From NCBI GenBank assembly GCA_015654695.1, contig JAATGJ010000126.1, positions 1 through 39,741 of the forward strand: a DNA stretch of 39,741 nt, in the 5' to 3' direction. This DNA is from Chitinophagales bacterium. Its GTDB lineage: Bacteria; Bacteroidota; Bacteroidia; Chitinophagales; Chitinophagaceae. How positions within the stretch are numbered: position 1 is the first letter of the stretch; each line of letters opens with the position of its first letter. The notes beneath the pieces were generated by a model. It searched no databases. It saw only the letters and a list, made by a program, of their open reading frames with translations, and was not told where the DNA came from. The translations under genes were made by a program, and so were the position numbers. This document shows positions 18,548-27,324 of this stretch, piece after piece.

Positions 18548-18733
18548 TAATAAATCAGCCTACTATTTTTTTGCTGGCTTTACTGGTAGTATATCATGCC
18601 AAATGTTTGCCGGGCGATAAGAAAAGTATCTTGAAAATGTATATTTACCTTCTTCCAGCCTTACCGGCTATGTATGAAATTCCATATCTTTAAATTATTC
18701 AAAATCTATTTCTTACTATTAAAAACTACTACA

Positions 18734-19087
18734 ATGGATGACAATCAAAACATCGAACTCATCGTCAATAACCAGGAAACGATCAAAAGTAACCAGGGGG
18801 TAATTACGGGTAACCAGGGAGTGATCAAAGGCAACCAGGGAACAATTCTTAAAAACCAGGGCATCATCAAAACAAACCAGGGTACACTTCTTAAAAACCA
18901 GGGAGTGATCAAAGGCAATCAAAAAGTAATTGTTGATAACCAGAAATCCTTAAAAGGAAACCAGGGCACCATCATTTCCAACCAGAAGACAATCATCAAT
19001 AATCAAAAGGTGATCCTGAAGAATCAAAAAACCCTTGACCTGATCCTTAAAAACCAGCAAACGATCCTGAAGCTGCTAAAAAAATAA
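18734..19087 (+). CDS. small NQ-heptad coiled-coil protein
   Basis: A protein of 117 residues that I do not recognise from any named family. After a short start (MDDNQNIELIVN) it consists of twelve consecutive seven-residue units of the form NQ-x-(V/T/I)-I/L-x-x (residues 13-96), then a ten-residue variant unit, another NQ unit and LLKK. Aligned as a coiled coil, I/L falls at a and Asn at d, the pattern of the N-at-d layers known from trimeric coiled coils. An upstream in-frame ATG at 18674 would add a hydrophobic stretch (FKLFKIYFLLLK), but 18734 is chosen because the upstream part is not repeat-like. A terminator follows at 19139-19167. Confidence 0.7.
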   Translation: MDDNQNIELIVNNQETIKSNQGVITGNQGVIKGNQGTILKNQGIIKTNQGTLLKNQGVIKGNQKVIVDNQKSLKGNQGTIISNQKTIINNQKVILKNQKTLDLILKNQQTILKLLKK

Positions 19088-19138: not shown

Positions 19139-19167
19139 AAATGGGATGAAAACGATCCCATTTTTTT
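19139..19167 (+). terminator. intrinsic terminator after the NQ-repeat gene
   Basis: Nine-base arms AAATGGGAT (19139-19147) and ATCCCATTT (19155-19163) enclose a seven-base loop and are followed by T residues through 19167. It may work in both directions, since the next gene converges from the right and ends at 19170. Confidence 0.8.
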
Positions 19168-19169
19168 AT

Positions 19170-19400
19170 TTAGTCAATAAACTTCAATTTTCTTGTCAGC
19201 TTATTGGCCACGGGAAAAATGATCAATGCGGCACAGTAGGCCACCGGGAACATGATGATCCATGTCTTCATGTATTGCACCGTCCAACCATCATGAAATC
19301 CATAGTTCCAGATGATTCCTATAAGTGTCATCAGCAATGTCATCGGAACAATGATGAAAGCAGTATGAATGTACTTCCTGAATTTGTTTTTAACAGTCAT
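19170..19400 (-). CDS. small DUF2798-like membrane protein
   Basis: A 76-residue protein with two membrane helices (AFIIVPMTLLMTLIGIIWNY and WIIMFPVAYCAALIIFPVA) and basic ends (KNKFRKY at the start, NKLTRKLKF at the end). This matches the two-helix layout and the FPxAY...FPxANKLTRK pattern of DUF2798 proteins, whose function is not known. It stands alone, converging on the NQ-repeat gene. Confidence 0.75.
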   Translation of the reverse strand: MTVKNKFRKYIHTAFIIVPMTLLMTLIGIIWNYGFHDGWTVQYMKTWIIMFPVAYCAALIIFPVANKLTRKLKFID

Positions 19401-19590
19401 AAAAATGGCAATTACAATCGTTTAATAAAATCCGCTGAAGCAGGTTCACTAAAGATATAAAGTTGATGGTATAATTTAAAAAAAATTATGGCTCCATGTT
19501 TTGAAAAGAGTTACGAAGTTCCGGGTGCAGGTTCGATATCTGCCGGAACTACTTTCTTTCTCCAATCAGGAGATTCATATCCTGCAATAT

Positions 19591-19623
19591 AAAAAAGTGC
19601 TGCCAGTTATTTACCGGCAGCAC
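19591..19623 (-). terminator. intrinsic terminator after the GMC-DUF1080 gene
   Basis: Read on the minus strand, GTGCTGCC and GGCAGCAC arms (19597-19604 and 19616-19623) form a hairpin with a short AT loop. It is followed by six T residues (the A run at 19591-19596), 22 bp past the stop at 19646. Confidence 0.85.
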
Positions 19624-19645
19624 CATCATCAAAGTTCGAATGTTA

Positions 19646-21997
19646 CTATAACTCTTTTACCACGATATTCCGGAATGCCACCCGTTTGCCCGGAAAAGCC
19701 TGTAAACCCATAAAAGTGGGCATTGACTGCGTTGTCGGCAATCCCTTATTGGGATTCTCACTTACAAAATTGGTAACCAACTGACCGTTTAAGTTTACAT
19801 TATACTTATTGCCGGTTACTTCAATTTCAAACAAGTTCCATTCGCCTGCGGGCTTAGCCGCTACTGGTTTTGTGTCCTGTACCGGTTCATTGTAGATAGC
19901 TCCTGTTTGATGAATGGGAGATCCGTCCGGTGCGCCGTTTTCATCTATCTGTACTTCATAACCAAAGTCAACGCCTACATAAGCGCCGTTTACATATCCT
20001 TTCGTTTCAGGATCAGGGAAACGTAAAAATATCCCGGAGTTATCATCATCCCTGTACCGTTTCCATTCCAATGATAATTTAAAATCTTTGGGTAACGGTG
20101 ATGTACACATCAGCAATCCCATGTCCTGCCCCGGCAATGTTTCCAGCGCGCCATCATTTAAAATAAAATCTCCGGCGCCTACCATCTTCCAGCCTTCTAT
20201 ATGCAGATCATCAAACAACACTTTTGTCTTGGGTGCATTAACAGTAAAGGGTACCGCATCCGGGATAATATATTTCGCCGTTCTTCTTACCAATGCAATA
20301 CCTGTCAGCATCGGGTTAGGAGAACCAATGGTTGGGAATAAGGCGGCAGACGCTACAAAACAATTGGCAACATGATGAAACCTTCCCTCCGTATTGGTAA
20401 CAGATGCAGCAGGATCATCACCCATCCATAACGTTCCGGCTTCATGATGTGTAGCGCCTGATCCATCCCGCATCCTTGCCAGTTCTTTAACCGGCAGGCC
20501 GTTGGCAAAAACTTTGATAATATTATCGGCAGTTTTATCCATCGCATCCCAGACAGCCATATCTTTTTCAGAAGCGGCGATATTTACAAATGCACGCTGT
20601 ACCCCGAACTCATCAGGCTCACTATCCAACTGTACAAAGTTTTGCGGGTTCATAGTCTCCATCTCTCCTATCCCGCGGATAGTAATCACTACATGAGAAT
20701 CCGTAGCTGCTTTTAATTTATCAAACCCATCTATGTCCGGAACAATTTTAAACAATTCCGCTTCTGAGTTACTATCTGCTTCACCCAGCCCCGCTGCGGT
20801 GATCTGGTGATGATAATAGCTGGTGGTACCATCAGCATGTGTATGCCTGCTTTTTACGAATAGCGCAGATGCCTGTAATTCTTTAACTGCATTGGAAAGA
20901 TGTGTCAGCGCTTTTCTTGGAATACGAACAGTAAGATTAGAGCGTAAATGCGCCATCAGGTTCTTTCCAAACAGGTGATAGTTGGGTACTCCCTGGAATG
21001 AATTTAATGCAAGGCGTGTACTTTCTACCGTAGCCAACGCAACAATTACCTGGCCGTTTGCCGGTAATGGGATAATACCCTGGTTGGTTTCCACCCCGGT
21101 TACTTTTGTACCATCGAATACCAGCCTGTTGACATGACATACCGGAACTACCATTAACCGTTTTTTAAAATCATCTCCTTTGCTTTCAACAGCAGCCGTT
21201 CTTACAGCTTTGATCAGCAAAGGCACTGAGCTGAATTTATTATTACAGAAAAATCCCCTGCGGGCTTCTGTTTCCACTGCGAGTGGTGCTTCCAGCTTAT
21301 TGATGTCTTCCCTTGAAGGATCTATATCATCCAGGTGCAGCTCCAGTTCATCCAGCGGGATGGCGCCCTGTATTTTTCCATTATTAATACCATCAAATAA
21401 CTGTTGCCGCATTGCATCGTGCATATCGCTTTTGATAAAATCGTTGGTTTGTGTAACACCCATTTGCGCTGCCGCTTCCCTGAAATAGATATCGTTCAGA
21501 TCATTGACCACATCATCCGGCCACCTGTCAGCAGGCATTTCCTCATCTAATAATTGCGGGGACCATCCTCCCCAGAATACAGAACGTCCACCGATACAAT
21601 AGGCCAGGCCCGGAAACTTTGTTGCGGAATGCCAGGGCAATCCCCATACTTCATTGCGTGGTGTAAGGGCTTGTCCCGTCATCCGCAGTTCAGCAATGCT
21701 GGTGGGCGATGGCAGATTGATACCCATTAAAGGAATGTTCTGTACGTGAGTAGGCAGCAACATCGGGCCGCCTTCCAAAACGAGAATGCGATGGTTTCTT
21801 GCTTTGTCCTGGTCAAAGAGGCGCTGTGCAATGGCTGCACCAAAAGAACCTGCGCCAATGACAATAATATCAAATGCTTTAGCATCAGGCCGCAGGGTTT
21901 TATCCGTTGTCTGAAGCGCTTCGTCTAACCCGTTACAAACATAACGGCCAATGACATCTTTGGTGAAATTTGTGGACTGGGTTGTTTTCGGAGTCAT
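19646..21997 (-). CDS. GMC-family FAD oxidoreductase fused to a DUF1080 (3-keto-glycoside hydrolase-like) domain
   Basis: A 783-residue fusion. Residues about 42-585 are a GMC-type flavoprotein: the FAD Rossmann motif VIGAGSFGAAIA (GxGxxG at 48-53), LVLEGGP, and the C-terminal catalytic part with THHEAGTLWMG (His517/518) and IGSPNPMLTG (Asn561). Residues about 595-783 form a DUF1080 jelly-roll domain (FDDLHIEGWKMV, then GIFLRFPDPETKGYVNGAYV, GYEVQIDENG, GEWNLFEIEVTG). DUF1080 proteins include enzymes that cleave 3-keto-glycosides, while some GMC flavoenzymes oxidise sugars, so the fusion may couple sugar oxidation to cleavage. No signal peptide is seen, which is unusual for DUF1080 proteins. 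It has its own terminator. Confidence 0.88.
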   Translation of the reverse strand: MTPKTTQSTNFTKDVIGRYVCNGLDEALQTTDKTLRPDAKAFDIIVIGAGSFGAAIAQRLFDQDKARNHRILVLEGGPMLLPTHVQNIPLMGINLPSPTSIAELRMTGQALTPRNEVWGLPWHSATKFPGLAYCIGGRSVFWGGWSPQLLDEEMPADRWPDDVVNDLNDIYFREAAAQMGVTQTNDFIKSDMHDAMRQQLFDGINNGKIQGAIPLDELELHLDDIDPSREDINKLEAPLAVETEARRGFFCNNKFSSVPLLIKAVRTAAVESKGDDFKKRLMVVPVCHVNRLVFDGTKVTGVETNQGIIPLPANGQVIVALATVESTRLALNSFQGVPNYHLFGKNLMAHLRSNLTVRIPRKALTHLSNAVKELQASALFVKSRHTHADGTTSYYHHQITAAGLGEADSNSEAELFKIVPDIDGFDKLKAATDSHVVITIRGIGEMETMNPQNFVQLDSEPDEFGVQRAFVNIAASEKDMAVWDAMDKTADNIIKVFANGLPVKELARMRDGSGATHHEAGTLWMGDDPAASVTNTEGRFHHVANCFVASAALFPTIGSPNPMLTGIALVRRTAKYIIPDAVPFTVNAPKTKVLFDDLHIEGWKMVGAGDFILNDGALETLPGQDMGLLMCTSPLPKDFKLSLEWKRYRDDDNSGIFLRFPDPETKGYVNGAYVGVDFGYEVQIDENGAPDGSPIHQTGAIYNEPVQDTKPVAAKPAGEWNLFEIEVTGNKYNVNLNGQLVTNFVSENPNKGLPTTQSMPTFMGLQAFPGKRVAFRNIVVKEL

Positions 21998-22279
21998 AGT
22001 AAAAGATTTTGAGTGAAGAAATAAATAGTAATGCTTGTCTATTTAATCAAAGCTTTCACAAGGCTCCTGTATATATAAGACCAGTGTACACAACCTGGAA
22101 ATAAGAGCAGAAAAATGCCGTGACAGATTACAGGTGATATGAAGTTACAATACCCTTTTTCCCGTTCCCAGAAAAATTTCTTCACAAGGGTTAATATCTG
22201 CCAGCCGCCATGTTTGGTTTTAAAACGGGAAATCACTTCTCAAAAAAAATATCTAATTTCCTATTCTAAACAACTCACC

Positions 22280-22714
22280 ATGGCTACACCAACCAAACCT
22301 TCTACATTTCTTTTATTTCCCTGGGGTCTCATGTCTATCGTGCTGGTACTGCTGCTGAACTTAACGCTTAACAATGCCTGGTTCAGCAAAAACTGGAGCT
22401 GGATCGCACTGGTATTAATTATCCCCGCAGCTATACTGGAGAATTTTAAAGTAGGCTACTCTACGATGCGGATCATGTTCCTGAAAGTCGTTTTTTCACT
22501 GATCTCCTTCTTACTTGTGGGAATGGCTTTCGGTTCGGCCCTTACCGGCTGGCATATTGACCGGTTTCAAAAAATCGAAGGCGTTAAATCCATTAGCCTT
22601 CCCTGGTATGTAATGCTTGCCCTGGCTGTTTTACTGCTGATACAGGTAGCTCAACTTTTCAGTATGCTCAAAGCGGTGAAGAGGGAGTTTATGCAGCTCG
22701 ATCCTGATCAGTAA
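22280..22714 (+). CDS. small membrane protein of unknown function
   Basis: A protein of 144 residues with four hydrophobic helices, not recognised. Segments are LFPWGLMSIVLVLLLNLTL, WIALVLIIPAAILENF, VVFSLISFLLVGMAFGSAL and WYVMLALAVLLLIQVAQLF, with a charged tail (KAVKREFMQLDPDQ). The open frame extends up to 22139, but the upstream part is basic and not protein-like, so ATG 22280 (MATPTKPSTFLLFPW) is chosen. It converges on the last carotenoid gene with a 32-bp gap. Confidence 0.65.
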   Translation: MATPTKPSTFLLFPWGLMSIVLVLLLNLTLNNAWFSKNWSWIALVLIIPAAILENFKVGYSTMRIMFLKVVFSLISFLLVGMAFGSALTGWHIDRFQKIEGVKSISLPWYVMLALAVLLLIQVAQLFSMLKAVKREFMQLDPDQ

Positions 22715-22746: not shown

Positions 22747-23898
22747 TTACAATTGCCGTAACGCTGCTTTAAGAAAAGGAAGAGTGGGAAGCGAAGAAAT
22801 AATTTTCAATTCATCTTTTACTGAACTTTCATTGTCCAAAAACCTCAGCACCTGCCGGGGTTTATTTTTTTTGAATAACTGAGTAAATATTTTATCGCCA
22901 GCCAGTTTATTGTGATAAAGAATGTAGAGCAATGTATTGTCATAAAACCGGAATCGTTTGGGGGCAGCCGGAAGATAGTTTAAGTTTTTACCGGTTATTA
23001 AATAGTCCACTACCTGCTGGCTTTGTTTTTGAATAAACTGGAAAGTATAGCCGCTAGAAGCTTTTGTTTGCCCACCCGCTGTACCGATCTGCCAGCCATT
23101 TCCTGCAAAGGAAAATTTTTCATTTGTCATGGGAATTACGCCAAACTCCTGTTCCTGCACAGTATATTCATCTATACCAAGAAAAGAATGAATATAGTTT
23201 CCTAATTCTTTATCATATTCTTCCGGGGGCAACAGTTCTTTGGTAAACAACGTGTATTCAACCAACGCGGAAGTAGCGCTGAATGGTAACACATAGGCAA
23301 AGGTGGTTCCATGTTGCTGGTGCATCCGGAAGTCCATTATAGTTGCCTGCGCCGGATCAAATGATGGTTTTGCTGTTTCAATAAGCCATCCTTTAAAATG
23401 CTGCAAAAGCCTGATGCTTTTTTTATTTTGTTCGCCCGGTTTATAAATAGAATTAAAAATGTGTGTGCCTGTAGCAAATAACCTGAATTCACGATCATTC
23501 AACCTGAGTAGCAGGTCATCTTTTTCATACTCCCATTTTTTCACATCTGCATACACCATTTCAATACTATTCTGTTTGGCTATTTCAGTAAAACAATACT
23601 GGTAAAAATCAATTCCCCGTATCATCTTATACTGGTAAGGGGTAATGTTCATGGCAGAAGAAAATTCATTACTTAAAAAGGAAACCCTGTCCCATTTCCT
23701 GTAAACCACCTCGTCAAAAAAACCATTTTCTTTTTCCCAGAAACACCAGGTGCGGTCATTTTTTGTTTTAGGTTCTTTATCGAGCAATAAAATTTTCTTA
23801 CCGGTGAATTTACCACTACGGATCATCCGCATCAGCAGGCTAAGGCTGGCGCAACCGGCCCCTATAAAAATATAATCGTATGAAGTTGATGTAAGCAG
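22747..23898 (-). CDS. crtY: lycopene beta-cyclase
   Basis: A flavoprotein that closes the two ends of lycopene to make beta-carotene. The first ATG (23832) would give 361 residues but omit the nucleotide-binding loop. The frame extends upstream and encodes SYDYIFIGAGCASLSLL (GxGxxS) before that ATG, so the real start is upstream. No ATG is available there: candidates are CTG at 23896-23898 (383 residues, the family's usual length) or ATT at 23905-23907. Other motifs are KNDRTWCFWE, RGIDFYQYCF and GTAGGQTKASSGYTFQFI, all typical of CrtY. It is the last gene of the carotenoid operon. Confidence 0.9.
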   Translation of the reverse strand: MLTSTSYDYIFIGAGCASLSLLMRMIRSGKFTGKKILLLDKEPKTKNDRTWCFWEKENGFFDEVVYRKWDRVSFLSNEFSSAMNITPYQYKMIRGIDFYQYCFTEIAKQNSIEMVYADVKKWEYEKDDLLLRLNDREFRLFATGTHIFNSIYKPGEQNKKSIRLLQHFKGWLIETAKPSFDPAQATIMDFRMHQQHGTTFAYVLPFSATSALVEYTLFTKELLPPEEYDKELGNYIHSFLGIDEYTVQEQEFGVIPMTNEKFSFAGNGWQIGTAGGQTKASSGYTFQFIQKQSQQVVDYLITGKNLNYLPAAPKRFRFYDNTLLYILYHNKLAGDKIFTQLFKKNKPRQVLRFLDNESSVKDELKIISSLPTLPFLKAALRQL

Positions 23899-23940
23899 AT
23901 GAAGAATTATTGGCTAAAGATAGGAAGATGAACAGGCATG

Positions 23941-24447
23941 CTATGCTTCCGGGGCATACTCTACTTTCTTATTCCCTGCCATCAGCTTTTTATCCCGGCG
24001 GATTTTATCCCAGTACTTTTTAGCGACATATAACATACCGAAACTTTCGCCCTGGTGGCGATCAAGATGCTTGTGATGCATTTTGTGCGCCCAGCGGATT
24101 GCCCTTACATACGTATTATTGCTCCGGGTGAACCATTTGAACCGCTGATGAATGATGACATCATGTACCATGAAATAAGCAAACCCATACGCCATAACAC
24201 CAAAACCTATGGATTGCATCCACCATACATGATTAAATGAACCAAATCCTATGAGCAAGATACTCGGCACGGCGAATATGATAAAGAAAGCGTCATTCTT
24301 TTCGAAAAAACCCGGCTCTGTCTGGTGATGGTCCCTGTGGAGGTACCAGAGAAATCCATGCATGACAAATCTGTGCGTAAGCCAGCTTACACCTTCCATA
24401 GCTATGAATGTTCCCAATAAGATCAATATATAATAAACTGCTGTCAT
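23941..24447 (-). CDS. crtZ: beta-carotene hydroxylase
   Basis: A 168-residue membrane di-iron hydroxylase that adds hydroxyls at C3 and C3' of beta-carotene, giving zeaxanthin. The His clusters of the fatty-acid-hydroxylase superfamily are all visible: HRFVMHGFLWYLHRDHH, FMVHDVIIHQRF and RWAHKMHHKHLDRHQGESFG. Membrane helices are at residues 2-15 and about 50-85. It starts 9 bp after the idi stop. Length and motifs are standard for CrtZ. Confidence 0.95.
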   Translation of the reverse strand: MTAVYYILILLGTFIAMEGVSWLTHRFVMHGFLWYLHRDHHQTEPGFFEKNDAFFIIFAVPSILLIGFGSFNHVWWMQSIGFGVMAYGFAYFMVHDVIIHQRFKWFTRSNNTYVRAIRWAHKMHHKHLDRHQGESFGMLYVAKKYWDKIRRDKKLMAGNKKVEYAPEA

Positions 24448-24456
24448 CTGCTATTT

Positions 24457-24996
24457 TTAAGCGGCTATGATCTTATAATGCCGGTTCCACCATTCTTCCA
24501 TTTTTGGAAAAGCCAGGTGAAACCATGCCGTGAATTTATGGGGTTGTTGCTGCAAACAGGACCGCACTTCTTCCAGGTTTTTGTAACAATAATCCATTAC
24601 TTCCCCCTTGTTGAAATCAACTGGTCCATCATATTTACCTGCAAATACATGATCAAATTCATGCTCCGTCAATCCATTGTCAAAATTTGCCTGGTAAAGA
24701 AAGTCAAAAATCTTTTCAAGCTGAGCGGTAAATCCCATTTCTTCCTTTAACCTCCTCTGTGCAGCTTCATGTACTTCTTCACCCGGCTGCGGATGGCTGC
24801 AACAACTGTTTGTCCATAATCCCGCGCTATGATATTTATTCATCGCCCTGCGTTGCAACAATATTTCGCCTTTCGTATTGAAAATAAAAACACTGAATGC
24901 ACGATGAAGCAGCCCTTTCCGGTGTGCTTCCATTTTTTCTATCGTGCCGGTAGCTTCGTCCTTTTCATTTACCAATATTACTTCCTGTATCTCCAT
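24457..24996 (-). CDS. idi: isopentenyl-diphosphate delta-isomerase, type 1
   Basis: A 179-residue Nudix-fold enzyme that interconverts isopentenyl and dimethylallyl diphosphate, supplying precursors to the carotenoid pathway. The catalytic Cys lies in TNSCCSHPQPGE, and the metal and acid residues in EHEFDHVFAG, plus LLQRRAMNKYHSAGLW. Its start codon directly follows the crtB stop with no gap, which indicates translational coupling. Its presence within the crt genes suggests that precursor supply is induced together with the pigment enzymes. Confidence 0.95.
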   Translation of the reverse strand: MEIQEVILVNEKDEATGTIEKMEAHRKGLLHRAFSVFIFNTKGEILLQRRAMNKYHSAGLWTNSCCSHPQPGEEVHEAAQRRLKEEMGFTAQLEKIFDFLYQANFDNGLTEHEFDHVFAGKYDGPVDFNKGEVMDYCYKNLEEVRSCLQQQPHKFTAWFHLAFPKMEEWWNRHYKIIAA

Positions 24997-25833
24997 TTAT
25001 ATCAGATTTAGCTGGTGTTTCAACCCTGCCCTTACAACGATCATCAGCTTGTAATGATGAGGTATCCGTATCCTTTTTTGCATTATCTGGCAGGGATGAG
25101 TTCTTTTTATTTTTTTGAAAAGGGATACGTAATATTTATACGCTACATATACACCAAACCTGGCCCTAACCGGCAGTTGAAGTATTCCTTCATATGCCTG
25201 GCTGAAGTCATGCTCAATATCAATTTCGATTCCCTTTTTATCTTTTTCCAGGAAATTATTGAAATCGCAACCGGGGAAATACATTCTTGACAGATCATTG
25301 TTATCCGCTTTCAGGTCACGCAGGAAATTGATTTTTTGAAAAGCGGCCCCTAAAGCCCTGGCATATTGCGCAAGCTCCCTGTATAATTTTTTATCTCCTT
25401 CGGAAAATACATGCAGGCACATCAACCCTACAACTTCCGCGGAACCATAGATATATTGGCCATACTCTTCCGGGCTATAGAATTTTTTAGAGAGATCCAA
25501 TTCCATGCTTTTAAAAAAAGCATCTACCAGTTCACGGTCAATTTTATAAGCATTAACAGTTAACTGGAAACTATTGAGTATGGGGTTCAAACTAATTTGT
25601 TGATCAATGGCTTCATGAGTCGCCGCTTTGAACTGCTGCAACAAAGACTTCTTATCATGTTCATGAAATGTATCCACTATCTCATCGGCAAACCGTACAA
25701 AGCCATAAATATTGCAAACAGGCGCCCGGAGATCTTTATGCAGTAGCCGGATAGCAGAATAAAAGGAAGTGCTGTATCGTTCAGCAACAATACGGCTGCA
25801 ATCTTCACTGACGGTATGAAACAACTGAAGCAT
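24997..25833 (-). CDS. crtB: phytoene synthase
   Basis: A 278-residue enzyme that condenses two geranylgeranyl diphosphates to phytoene. The first aspartate-rich motif is FVRFADEIVDTF (DExxD near residue 50), and the second NFLRDLKADNNDLSRMYFPG (near 170), both metal-diphosphate sites. SFYSAIRLL near the start is also usual. Length is slightly short but normal for Bacteroidota. It starts 18 bp after the crtI stop. Confidence 0.95.
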   Translation of the reverse strand: MLQLFHTVSEDCSRIVAERYSTSFYSAIRLLHKDLRAPVCNIYGFVRFADEIVDTFHEHDKKSLLQQFKAATHEAIDQQISLNPILNSFQLTVNAYKIDRELVDAFFKSMELDLSKKFYSPEEYGQYIYGSAEVVGLMCLHVFSEGDKKLYRELAQYARALGAAFQKINFLRDLKADNNDLSRMYFPGCDFNNFLEKDKKGIEIDIEHDFSQAYEGILQLPVRARFGVYVAYKYYVSLFKKIKRTHPCQIMQKRIRIPHHYKLMIVVRAGLKHQLNLI

Positions 25834-25851
25834 GTACTGTAATTTATAGAA

Positions 25852-27324
25852 TTAACTAATTAGTTTGATCACTTGTTTTGCCACTACTTCACCACTGATC
25901 AGGCTTGGCGGCACCCCCGGCCCAGGCACCGTTAACTGCCCGGTATAAAAAAGATTCTTCACTTTTTTACTCCTGCAGGATGGACGGAATATGGCTGTTT
26001 GCTTTAATGTATTGGCCAATCCATACGCATTCCCCCTGAAAGAGTTATAATCATTTACGAAATCGCTGACTGAATAAGATTTTTTATAGACAACAAATCC
26101 AAGTATGTCTTCGCCAATATGCTGCTCCATTCTTTTTACTATCAGTTGAAAATACTTTTCCCGCAATTCTTCCGTATCGTCTTCCAGTCCCGCAGCTACC
26201 GGAACAAGAAAAACAATGTTTTCACAACCTGACGGGGCTACAGACAAATCTGTAACGGATGAAACACTGACATAGAACAATGGAGCGGAAGGCCACTTCG
26301 GATCTTTATATATTTCTTTTCCATGCTGCTCAAAAGAAACATCAAAAAAAAGAGAATGATGTATTCCCCTCTTCAATTTTTTATTCAACCCCACATAGTA
26401 CAAAAGACAGGAGGGAGCCATTACCCTTTTTTGCCAGTAGCCTGCTGAATAGCTCCTGTATTTTTCAGGCAGCAGGTTTGATTCCGTAAATTCATAATCA
26501 GCTCCACTGATCACCACATCCGCTTCGTAATTATTTTTGTCCGTAATTATTTTTTTGGCGACCCCTTCTTCTACTACGATCTCTTTTACATTTTCTTCAA
26601 ACCTGAACTGAACACCAAGTTCCTTCGCCAGGTTGTACATTCCTTCCACTACCATATACATTCCGCCCTGCGGATACCATGTTCCCCCTTTTATGTCTGC
26701 ATAGTTCATCAGGCTGTACAGTGCCGGTGTATCTTCCGGCAATGCACCAAGAAATAAAACCGGGAACTCCATCAATTGCCGGAGTTTTATATGCTGAAAA
26801 TATTTTTGAATATGTTTTTTTATAGACGTAAGGATATCCAGTTTGAAAACCCCTTTGATGACTGACCAGCCAAGAAATTCTGAAAAAGAAAGTCCCGGTT
26901 TATAAACCAGGTTATTGATACCCACTTCATATTTATAAGCGGCTTCATGGAGGTACTTTTCTAATTTTTCCCCGCTGCCTTTCTCAAAAGATTCAAATAC
27001 TTTTTTTAATTCTTCAAATGAAGCGGGTATATCAGTAAAACCATCGTTCCAGTAAATGCGGTAAGAAGGATCAAGGCGCTGCAGTGTGTAATAATCGGAA
27101 ACTTTTTTTCCAAACTGGCTAAAATATCTTTCAAATACACCAGGCATCCAGTAAAAACTCGGACCCATATCAAAGGTAAACCCGGCTTCTTTTAATTGGC
27201 GGGCACGGCCACCTGCCATATTATTTTTCTCCAATACTGTTACCTGCCAACCACTCTTTGCCATAAATGATGCAGCAGATAAACCTGCAAACCCGCTACC
27301 AATAACAATAACTGATTTAGACAC
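25852..27324 (-). CDS. crtI: phytoene desaturase
   Basis: A 490-residue FAD enzyme that converts phytoene to lycopene in successive desaturations. The N-terminal FAD loop is VIGSGFAGLSAASFMAKSG, followed by GGRARQLKEAGFTFDMGPSFYW. The C-terminal signature LFYTGQLTVPGPGVPPSLISGE is diagnostic of CrtI-type desaturases. It lies 55 bp downstream of the sigma factor gene and heads the biosynthetic run crtI-crtB-idi-crtZ-crtY. Confidence 0.95.
   Translation of the reverse strand: MSKSVIVIGSGFAGLSAASFMAKSGWQVTVLEKNNMAGGRARQLKEAGFTFDMGPSFYWMPGVFERYFSQFGKKVSDYYTLQRLDPSYRIYWNDGFTDIPASFEELKKVFESFEKGSGEKLEKYLHEAAYKYEVGINNLVYKPGLSFSEFLGWSVIKGVFKLDILTSIKKHIQKYFQHIKLRQLMEFPVLFLGALPEDTPALYSLMNYADIKGGTWYPQGGMYMVVEGMYNLAKELGVQFRFEENVKEIVVEEGVAKKIITDKNNYEADVVISGADYEFTESNLLPEKYRSYSAGYWQKRVMAPSCLLYYVGLNKKLKRGIHHSLFFDVSFEQHGKEIYKDPKWPSAPLFYVSVSSVTDLSVAPSGCENIVFLVPVAAGLEDDTEELREKYFQLIVKRMEQHIGEDILGFVVYKKSYSVSDFVNDYNSFRGNAYGLANTLKQTAIFRPSCRSKKVKNLFYTGQLTVPGPGVPPSLISGEVVAKQVIKLIS

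Follow-up and report, generated by a model that had tools for sequence, protein, structure and literature searches.

Routes that oxidise a glycoside and then cleave it have been described, in the literature consulted here, as the work of two or more proteins. In Caulobacter, the LacABC dehydrogenase and a DUF1080 protein form a separate pair tied genetically to lactose use, and the same source calls the DUF1080-family protein BT2157 a 3-ketotrehalose hydrolase (PMC9007349). Among candidate oxidising partners, pyranose oxidases are classed as AA3_4 (PMC9659204), and residues H440 and N484 of the glycoside 3-oxidase PsG3Ox have been named as catalytic (PMC10646112). Here, we analyse a 39,741-nucleotide contig from a Chitinophagales bacterium (JAATGJ010000126.1, assembly GCA_015654695.1)—hereafter the window—on which a single gene encodes a GMC oxidoreductase fused to a DUF1080 domain. 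This fusion is real, conserved and best read as an oxidise-then-cleave enzyme. In the literature searched, with most subscription journals lying outside it, we found no description of the fusion and no paper joining GMC enzymes with DUF1080 or with 3-keto-disaccharide hydrolase.

The fusion gene (19646..21997, minus strand) starts with ATG, has no internal stop codons and encodes 783 amino acids. The initial annotation, made from the sequence alone, had claimed that one polypeptide joins a GMC oxidoreductase to a complete DUF1080 domain and carries no visible export signal; both points held up. By hmmscan, PF05199 (GMC_oxred_C) matches residues 451–569 (E-value 2.1e-15; 57.9 bits against a cut-off of 24.6) and PF06439 (3keto-disac_hyd)—the family now named 3-keto-disaccharide hydrolase and earlier called DUF1080—matches residues 591–781 over profile positions 2–187 of 187 (E-value 6.8e-32; 111.5 bits against a curated cut-off of 26.8), covering the whole domain. 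The pairing proposed for confirmation, PF05199/PF00732 with PF06439, survives in part: PF05199 and PF06439 are there, and PF00732 (GMC_oxred_N) gave no match to the window protein at an E-value of 0.01 and is absent from the families matched by the aligned fusions described below at 0.001. The N-terminal half begins with a GxGxxG FAD (flavin adenine dinucleotide)-binding motif (residues 48–53; 21839..21856, minus strand) and gives a DAO match below cut-off; despite the missing PF00732 match, the AlphaFold2 model of the protein aligns with whole GMC enzymes in Foldseek. Export was assessed by simple hydropathy, as the highest Kyte-Doolittle 15-residue mean within the first 45 residues: the window protein reaches 0.28, and 55 of the 58 fusions stay below 1.5 (exceptions L055, L084 and L092). 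The protein is probably located in the cytoplasm.

Relatives were sought by searching a plasmid collection with the window protein and by a genome scan, seeded by a three-sequence alignment, of one genome per species from 84,980 bacterial and archaeal species. The scan used two short patterns, so the pattern residues are conserved by construction and copies lacking them were missed; the patterns exclude H518, N561, W603, G655, E681, Q683, D685, T698, Y702 and W720. It matched 113 stretches, of which 88 encode a relative and 80 were kept. With the window and six plasmid loci, this made 87 loci: 58 single-ORF fusions (ORF, open reading frame), 14 GMC-only ORFs and 15 partial, broken or weak relatives dropped before counting (L050–L053, L077, L098, L100, L120, L122, L125–L128, L130 and L132). 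The 57 fusions besides the window copy—55 from the genome scan, one of which (L078) has its C-terminal end cut by a contig end, and two on plasmids—have the same domains in the same order, and hmmscan found both Pfam families in every one of the 58: all 56 members of A2, the alignment on which our residue counts rest, and both plasmid copies. The plasmid fusions, from Rhizobium leguminosarum (46%) and Nostoc sp. UHCC 0302 (33%), match over most of the query. The phylogenetic spread, which the initial annotation had suggested tracing, takes in 12 labelled phyla in our tree (Pseudomonadota, Actinomycetota, Acidobacteriota, Bacteroidota, Myxococcota, Nitrospirota, Planctomycetota, Verrucomicrobiota, Gemmatimonadota, Chloroflexota, Cyanobacteriota and Ca. 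Rokuibacteriota; the tree gives no phylum label to L070 or to the two plasmid copies). With one joined architecture turning up across many distantly related bacteria, the fusion is probably a genuine two-step sugar-cutting machine and not an accident; the 57 other fusions with the same domains led us to reject a chance or artefactual ORF, born of assembly or a frameshift, as well as a one-strain oddity.

The GMC part occupies residues 1 to about 580 (20258..21997, minus strand), as judged from PF05199 and Foldseek. Modelled by AlphaFold2 with A2, the whole protein reached a mean predicted local distance difference test score (pLDDT) of 87.0 and a predicted template modelling score of 0.88. Foldseek against the PDB returned, at ranks 1–7, the pyranose oxidase 9fl2, the C-glucosyl oxidoreductase DaCGO1 (8qve) and PsG3Ox (7qva and 7qfd), followed by membrane fructose dehydrogenase along with fungal pyranose 2-oxidases; 7qf8 came at rank 18 and 7dve, a C-glycoside oxidase, at rank 26. 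On this model, the closest folds to the GMC half are those of pyranose oxidases and C-glycoside 3-oxidases; in support of the initial annotation, sequence and fold matches place this half among the sugar oxidases, C-glycoside 3-oxidases included. In a phmmer alignment, H518 (20444..20446, minus strand) and N561 (20315..20317, minus strand) stand opposite residues 440 and 484 of 7qf8, counted along the printed alignment, and are catalytic by alignment with that PsG3Ox pair; neither residue varies in any of the 56 aligned fusions. Within the GxGxxG motif, G48 and G50 are kept in all 56 and G53 in 53. With GMC_oxred_C above cut-off, GxGxxG and the His and Asn residues, the protein belongs to the GMC oxidoreductase superfamily.

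The C-terminal part (residues about 589–783; 19649..20233, minus strand), delimited by Pfam, AlphaFold2 and Foldseek, resembles 3-keto-glycoside eliminase/hydratases. Its separate AlphaFold2 model (pLDDT 91.6) retrieved 17 PF06439 chains as its first 17 Foldseek matches (E-values 6.8e-12 to 4.0e-9), all of them putative glycosyl or sugar hydrolases of that family or named enzymes: by title, 9fbe and 8rr2 are 3-keto-glycoside eliminase/hydratases and 8v31 and 8tda are 3-keto-2-hydroxy-glucal-hydratases, which together with BT2157 (3osd) gave TMq values of 0.72–0.75. W603, G655, E681, Q683, D685, T698, Y702 and W720 are the same in all 56 aligned fusions, five of them forming the core E681-x-Q683-I-D685 ... 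T698-G-A-I-Y702 (19892..19957, minus strand). The E-x-Q, Y and W are all common to four of five other printed PF06439 chains (3imm, 3h3l, 3nmb and 3s5q), some being missing from 4jqt; D685 and T698 are not obviously shared with the solved chains. Profile, fold and conserved core make this part a PF06439 domain, as the initial annotation had it, and catalytic or core residues of the two halves have been retained.

PF06439 also has other partners. Six further long proteins with this domain, encoded elsewhere in the window's phylum, were scanned: two (L010 and L012) carry ThuA ('Trehalose utilisation'), one (L024) a xylose-isomerase-like barrel and three (L023, L027 and L030) HEAT repeats. The ThuA and barrel partners would fit 3-keto-sugar metabolism, with which we presume ThuA to be linked. 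A barrel-type eliminase has a precedent (PMC10628242).

We consider it reasonably probable that the fusion works in the cytoplasm as a bifunctional enzyme that cleaves glycosides oxidatively. Its N-terminal flavoprotein, the GMC part, would bind a glucoside and oxidise a ring hydroxyl, most likely at C3, by means of His518, Asn561 and FAD, and the flavin would be re-oxidised by O2 or some other acceptor. The PF06439 domain would then take the 3-keto-glycoside, removing the aglycone or second sugar by elimination via 2-hydroxy-3-keto-glucal, hydration of which would yield a 3-keto sugar; joining both domains may keep the unstable intermediate local. For the fusion protein itself, we infer FAD binding, C3 specificity, elimination and hydration, O2 as acceptor, the substrate and channelling. 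The 'oxidise then cleave' scheme of the initial annotation is partly supported by domains, fold, residues and recurrence, with one amendment: the titles of 9fbe, 8rr2, 8v31 and 8tda make elimination plus hydration a more likely second step than plain hydrolysis.

Gene neighbourhoods add hints about substrate and by-product (neighbour families being BLAST clusters, with one representative of each checked against Pfam). A GH13 gene lies within 10 kb of 11 of the 58 fusions and within 300 bp of eight, five of these overlapping as called, an overlap that depends on taking the first start codon of each ORF; in L081 it sits upstream of the fusion rather than downstream. At five rhizobial loci (L063:12436-14337 and relatives), the GH13 ORF overlaps the fusion by 15–30 bases. 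For the two GH13 neighbours scanned, the best NCBIfam match was TreZ, far below cut-off. The adjacent GH13 fits a predicted glucoside substrate and hints at alpha-glucans or trehalose in one clade. DyP peroxidase genes, found on either side, occur within 10 kb of six fusions and within 300 bp of five, which would fit release of H2O2. In the cyanobacterial locus L131 (9107-11041), the fusion's immediate neighbour encodes a DyP-type peroxidase that has a LysM domain at its C-terminus and shows no visible signal peptide. Among the chromate-resistance-type settings treated below, a separate PF06439 protein is encoded within 10 kb of 10 of the 58 fusions. Near the 14 GMC-only ORFs, GH13, ChrA, ChrB and DUF1259 were found in no case; of two neighbours of one such ORF (L104) scanned with a cleaving partner in mind, one had no family and the other a molybdopterin oxidoreductase domain.

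Several observations weigh against an oxidise-then-cleave enzyme. The GMC fold matches are only 14–20% identical among the best 50 and include C2 oxidases and dehydrogenases; all NCBIfam matches of the window protein fall far below cut-off, the pyranose-oxidase model TIGR02462 scoring 37.7 against 544.9 bits, so that the protein is a fold relative of those oxidases outside that equivalog. Eleven GMC relatives stop after the GMC part with no contig end there (three more of the 14, L101, L102 and L123, reach a contig end and may be cut fusions), and so the oxidase can do without a fused DUF1080 domain. A DyP peroxidase also adjoins one GMC-only ORF, L123, which is itself cut by a contig end. No sugar-catabolic gene was found among the window neighbours scanned, and at least one of ChrA, ChrB and DUF1259 is encoded near 21 of the 58 fusions, which a purely catabolic role leaves unexplained. 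In one study, loss of BT2157 by deletion did not impair growth on raffinose-family sugars (PMC11501099). The substrate and product of the fusion protein are themselves predictions. Finally, the DUF1080 fold is also common to lectins and, from rank 21 of our matches, to carbohydrate-binding module family 66 (CBM66), and CBM66 and DUF1080 calls are reported to overlap in a source in which DUF1080 proteins are proposed for xanthan backbone cleavage (PMC5673643).

These last matches and overlapping annotations speak for a different role, in which the DUF1080 part would cleave nothing and would act as a carbohydrate-binding module, keeping a glycan substrate in place for the GMC oxidase. We regard this as unlikely: CBM66 follows behind 17 leading PF06439 matches that include chains titled as eliminase/hydratases, and a polar core (E681, Q683, D685, T698 and Y702) invariant across 56 fusions would seem to go beyond what a divergent module needs.

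Chromate-resistance-type settings raise a second alternative to the two-step enzyme. Within 10 kb of the 58 fusions, ChrA is encoded near 12, ChrB near 13, DUF1259 (which we take to be LppY/LpqO) near 16 and a propeller protein, presumably of YncE/YVTN type, near 10, the Pfam match of its representative lying far below cut-off. In a control over 36 of the 58 loci, hand-chosen and not random (three of the 22 left out, L048, L085 and L089, also have ChrA nearby), ChrA lay near nine fusions against 0.19 expected from 0.76 Mb of locus DNA and 130 ChrA domain matches (about 65 genes, assuming two domains each) in the 252 Mb of 36 whole genomes, a Poisson figure that takes loci as independent though strains are related. 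In Arthrobacter FB24, chrK (a YVTN propeller), chrL (an LppY/LpqO lipoprotein) and chrJ contribute to high chromate resistance (PMC2751784). The flavoprotein could on this evidence be a redox accessory that handles Cr(VI) or its by-products, sugar serving as a mere electron donor, and the split between 21 of 58 fusions and 0 of 14 GMC-only ORFs with ChrA, ChrB or DUF1259 nearby is in keeping with it. Yet 37 of the 58 loci, some shortened by contig ends, have none of the three; chrJ, annotated as malate:quinone oxidoreductase, was judged unlikely to be a Cr(VI) reductase (PMC2751784); and the conserved second domain is left unexplained. The chromate-type setting does not apply to the window copy, because ChrA in that genome sits solely on a different contig and a match to DUF1259 was not found there; features of a chromate determinant are thus missing there and present in part around 21 of the 58 fusions. 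We regard such an accessory role as quite improbable. In the literature searched, we found no paper joining a GMC oxidoreductase with chromate resistance.

A combination of both ideas, distinctly unlikely, would make the fusion a widespread oxidase-eliminase on a single chain that channels a 3-keto sugar inside the cytoplasm and was repeatedly recruited into chromate-type clusters, where its sugar chemistry would protect against Cr(VI) or the oxidants that Cr(VI) generates; if so, 3-keto-glycoside chemistry would have a stress-defence role besides its catabolic one. A LacA-type dehydrogenase fused to a hydrolase and donating its electrons to a cytochrome instead of oxygen has in its favour that LacABC and DUF1080 work as a functional pair in bacteria (PMC9007349) and that fructose and cellobiose dehydrogenases are among the GMC fold matches, but is very improbable given that 55 of 58 fusions lack a visible export signal, that no LacB/LacC-type gene was found among the scanned window neighbours (a small ORF at 19146-19460 lying outside the scan) and that the best sequence and fold matches are oxidases.

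To return to the two-step fusion and its descent, its tree branching does not track host phyla, which suggests spread by transfer. The window protein groups with acidobacterial, Cytophagales and Nitrosospira copies (support 96; the fork itself unresolved). Full-length matches came only from its own genome, both among 296 sampled genomes of its phylum and among seven of its genus (own included in each case); the best matches elsewhere had E-values of 5.7e-31, covering the DUF1080 part only, in the 295 other phylum genomes, where at most about three candidates per genome were scored, and 5.8e-10 in the six other genus genomes. Foreign base composition was unconvincing as proof of transfer, GC content (0.458) and third-position GC content (GC3, 0.423) lying within the range of the other 25 window ORFs measured. 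For a viral origin, one viral scan with this single protein, reaching close relatives only, found no relative. The window genome has 61 matches to the type IX secretion system sorting tail, which fits a Bacteroidota host, although such matches also appeared in two of 14 control genomes, in one of them over cut-off.

Among the loci dropped before counting, L098, L125, L126 and L127 have either the fusion or the GMC part of it broken across two ORFs and are likely decayed copies or assembly errors. An Azospirillum plasmid (L050:8031-8834) holds a fusion remnant that keeps only the end of the GMC part and PF06439, adjoined by an M4 peptidase; an M4 peptidase is also found near the Nostoc fusion. 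On a Bradyrhizobium elkanii plasmid, a sugar phosphate isomerase/epimerase annotation (L051:8616-9119), a label that AtOGE-type eliminases can carry, lies about 0.9 kb downstream of a weaker, transposase-disrupted GMC relative.

In the window, the fusion gene stands alone. Directly 3′ of its stop codon lies an intrinsic terminator-like hairpin of 12 pairs followed by a T run (19596..19624, minus strand), at which the gene probably ends its own transcript; the window has three terminator-like sites against 2.5 expected from shuffles, this one having the longest stem and clearest T tail. Upstream are a divergent ORF without family (22139-22714) and a carotenoid cluster (22747-27324, minus strand) of lycopene cyclase, a CrtZ-like protein (no Pfam match), a Nudix-type protein, phytoene synthase and a desaturase-like amine oxidase, to which we assign CrtZ and isopentenyl-isomerase roles by assumption. 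On the other side lie a group of ABC transporter genes, one for an NMT1-like binding protein among them, and a 137-residue ORF (18674-19087, plus strand) of short NQGxIxxNQ-like repeats, with a weak sub-cut-off match to the antifreeze beta-roll PF21300. The neighbours scanned comprised ABC transporter parts, the lycopene cyclase, this repeat protein and the protein without family.

The fusion gives PF06439 an independent functional link and offers a conserved setting in which channelling of a 3-keto-glycoside could be measured directly, and its recurrence near chromate-type, DyP and GH13 genes raises questions about the purpose of the pathway. Its GMC fold and catalytic His/Asn pair are those of PsG3Ox (7qf8 and 7qva), 7dve, DaCGO1 (8qve) and OPOx (9fl2), whereas the glycoside 3-oxidases and pyranose oxidases are chains of 495–539 residues without a DUF1080 part (again at 14–20% identity among the best 50 matches), and the His in the GIHW stretch of 9fl2 is F or Y in the fusions (12 of 56 rows compared). 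The DUF1080 half has the fold of the PF06439 eliminase/hydratases (BT2157 3osd, 8tda, 8v31, 8rr2 and 9fbe), but those are single-domain chains of 265–281 residues, some named secreted, while the fusion carries the domain as the C-terminal part of an oxidase with no visible export signal. Like LacABC with DUF1080, the fusion would pair sugar 3-oxidation with DUF1080; unlike those separate, periplasmic proteins (PMC9007349), it is one chain, and the window copy has no visible export signal and no LacB/LacC-type partner among the neighbours scanned. It would share its oxidise-then-eliminate logic with PsG3Ox plus C-deglycosylating enzyme and with AtOGE (PMC10628242), yet AtOGE, a Mn-dependent TIM barrel, forms a chain of its own and lies outside PF06439, whereas the fusion unites both steps in one compact unit.

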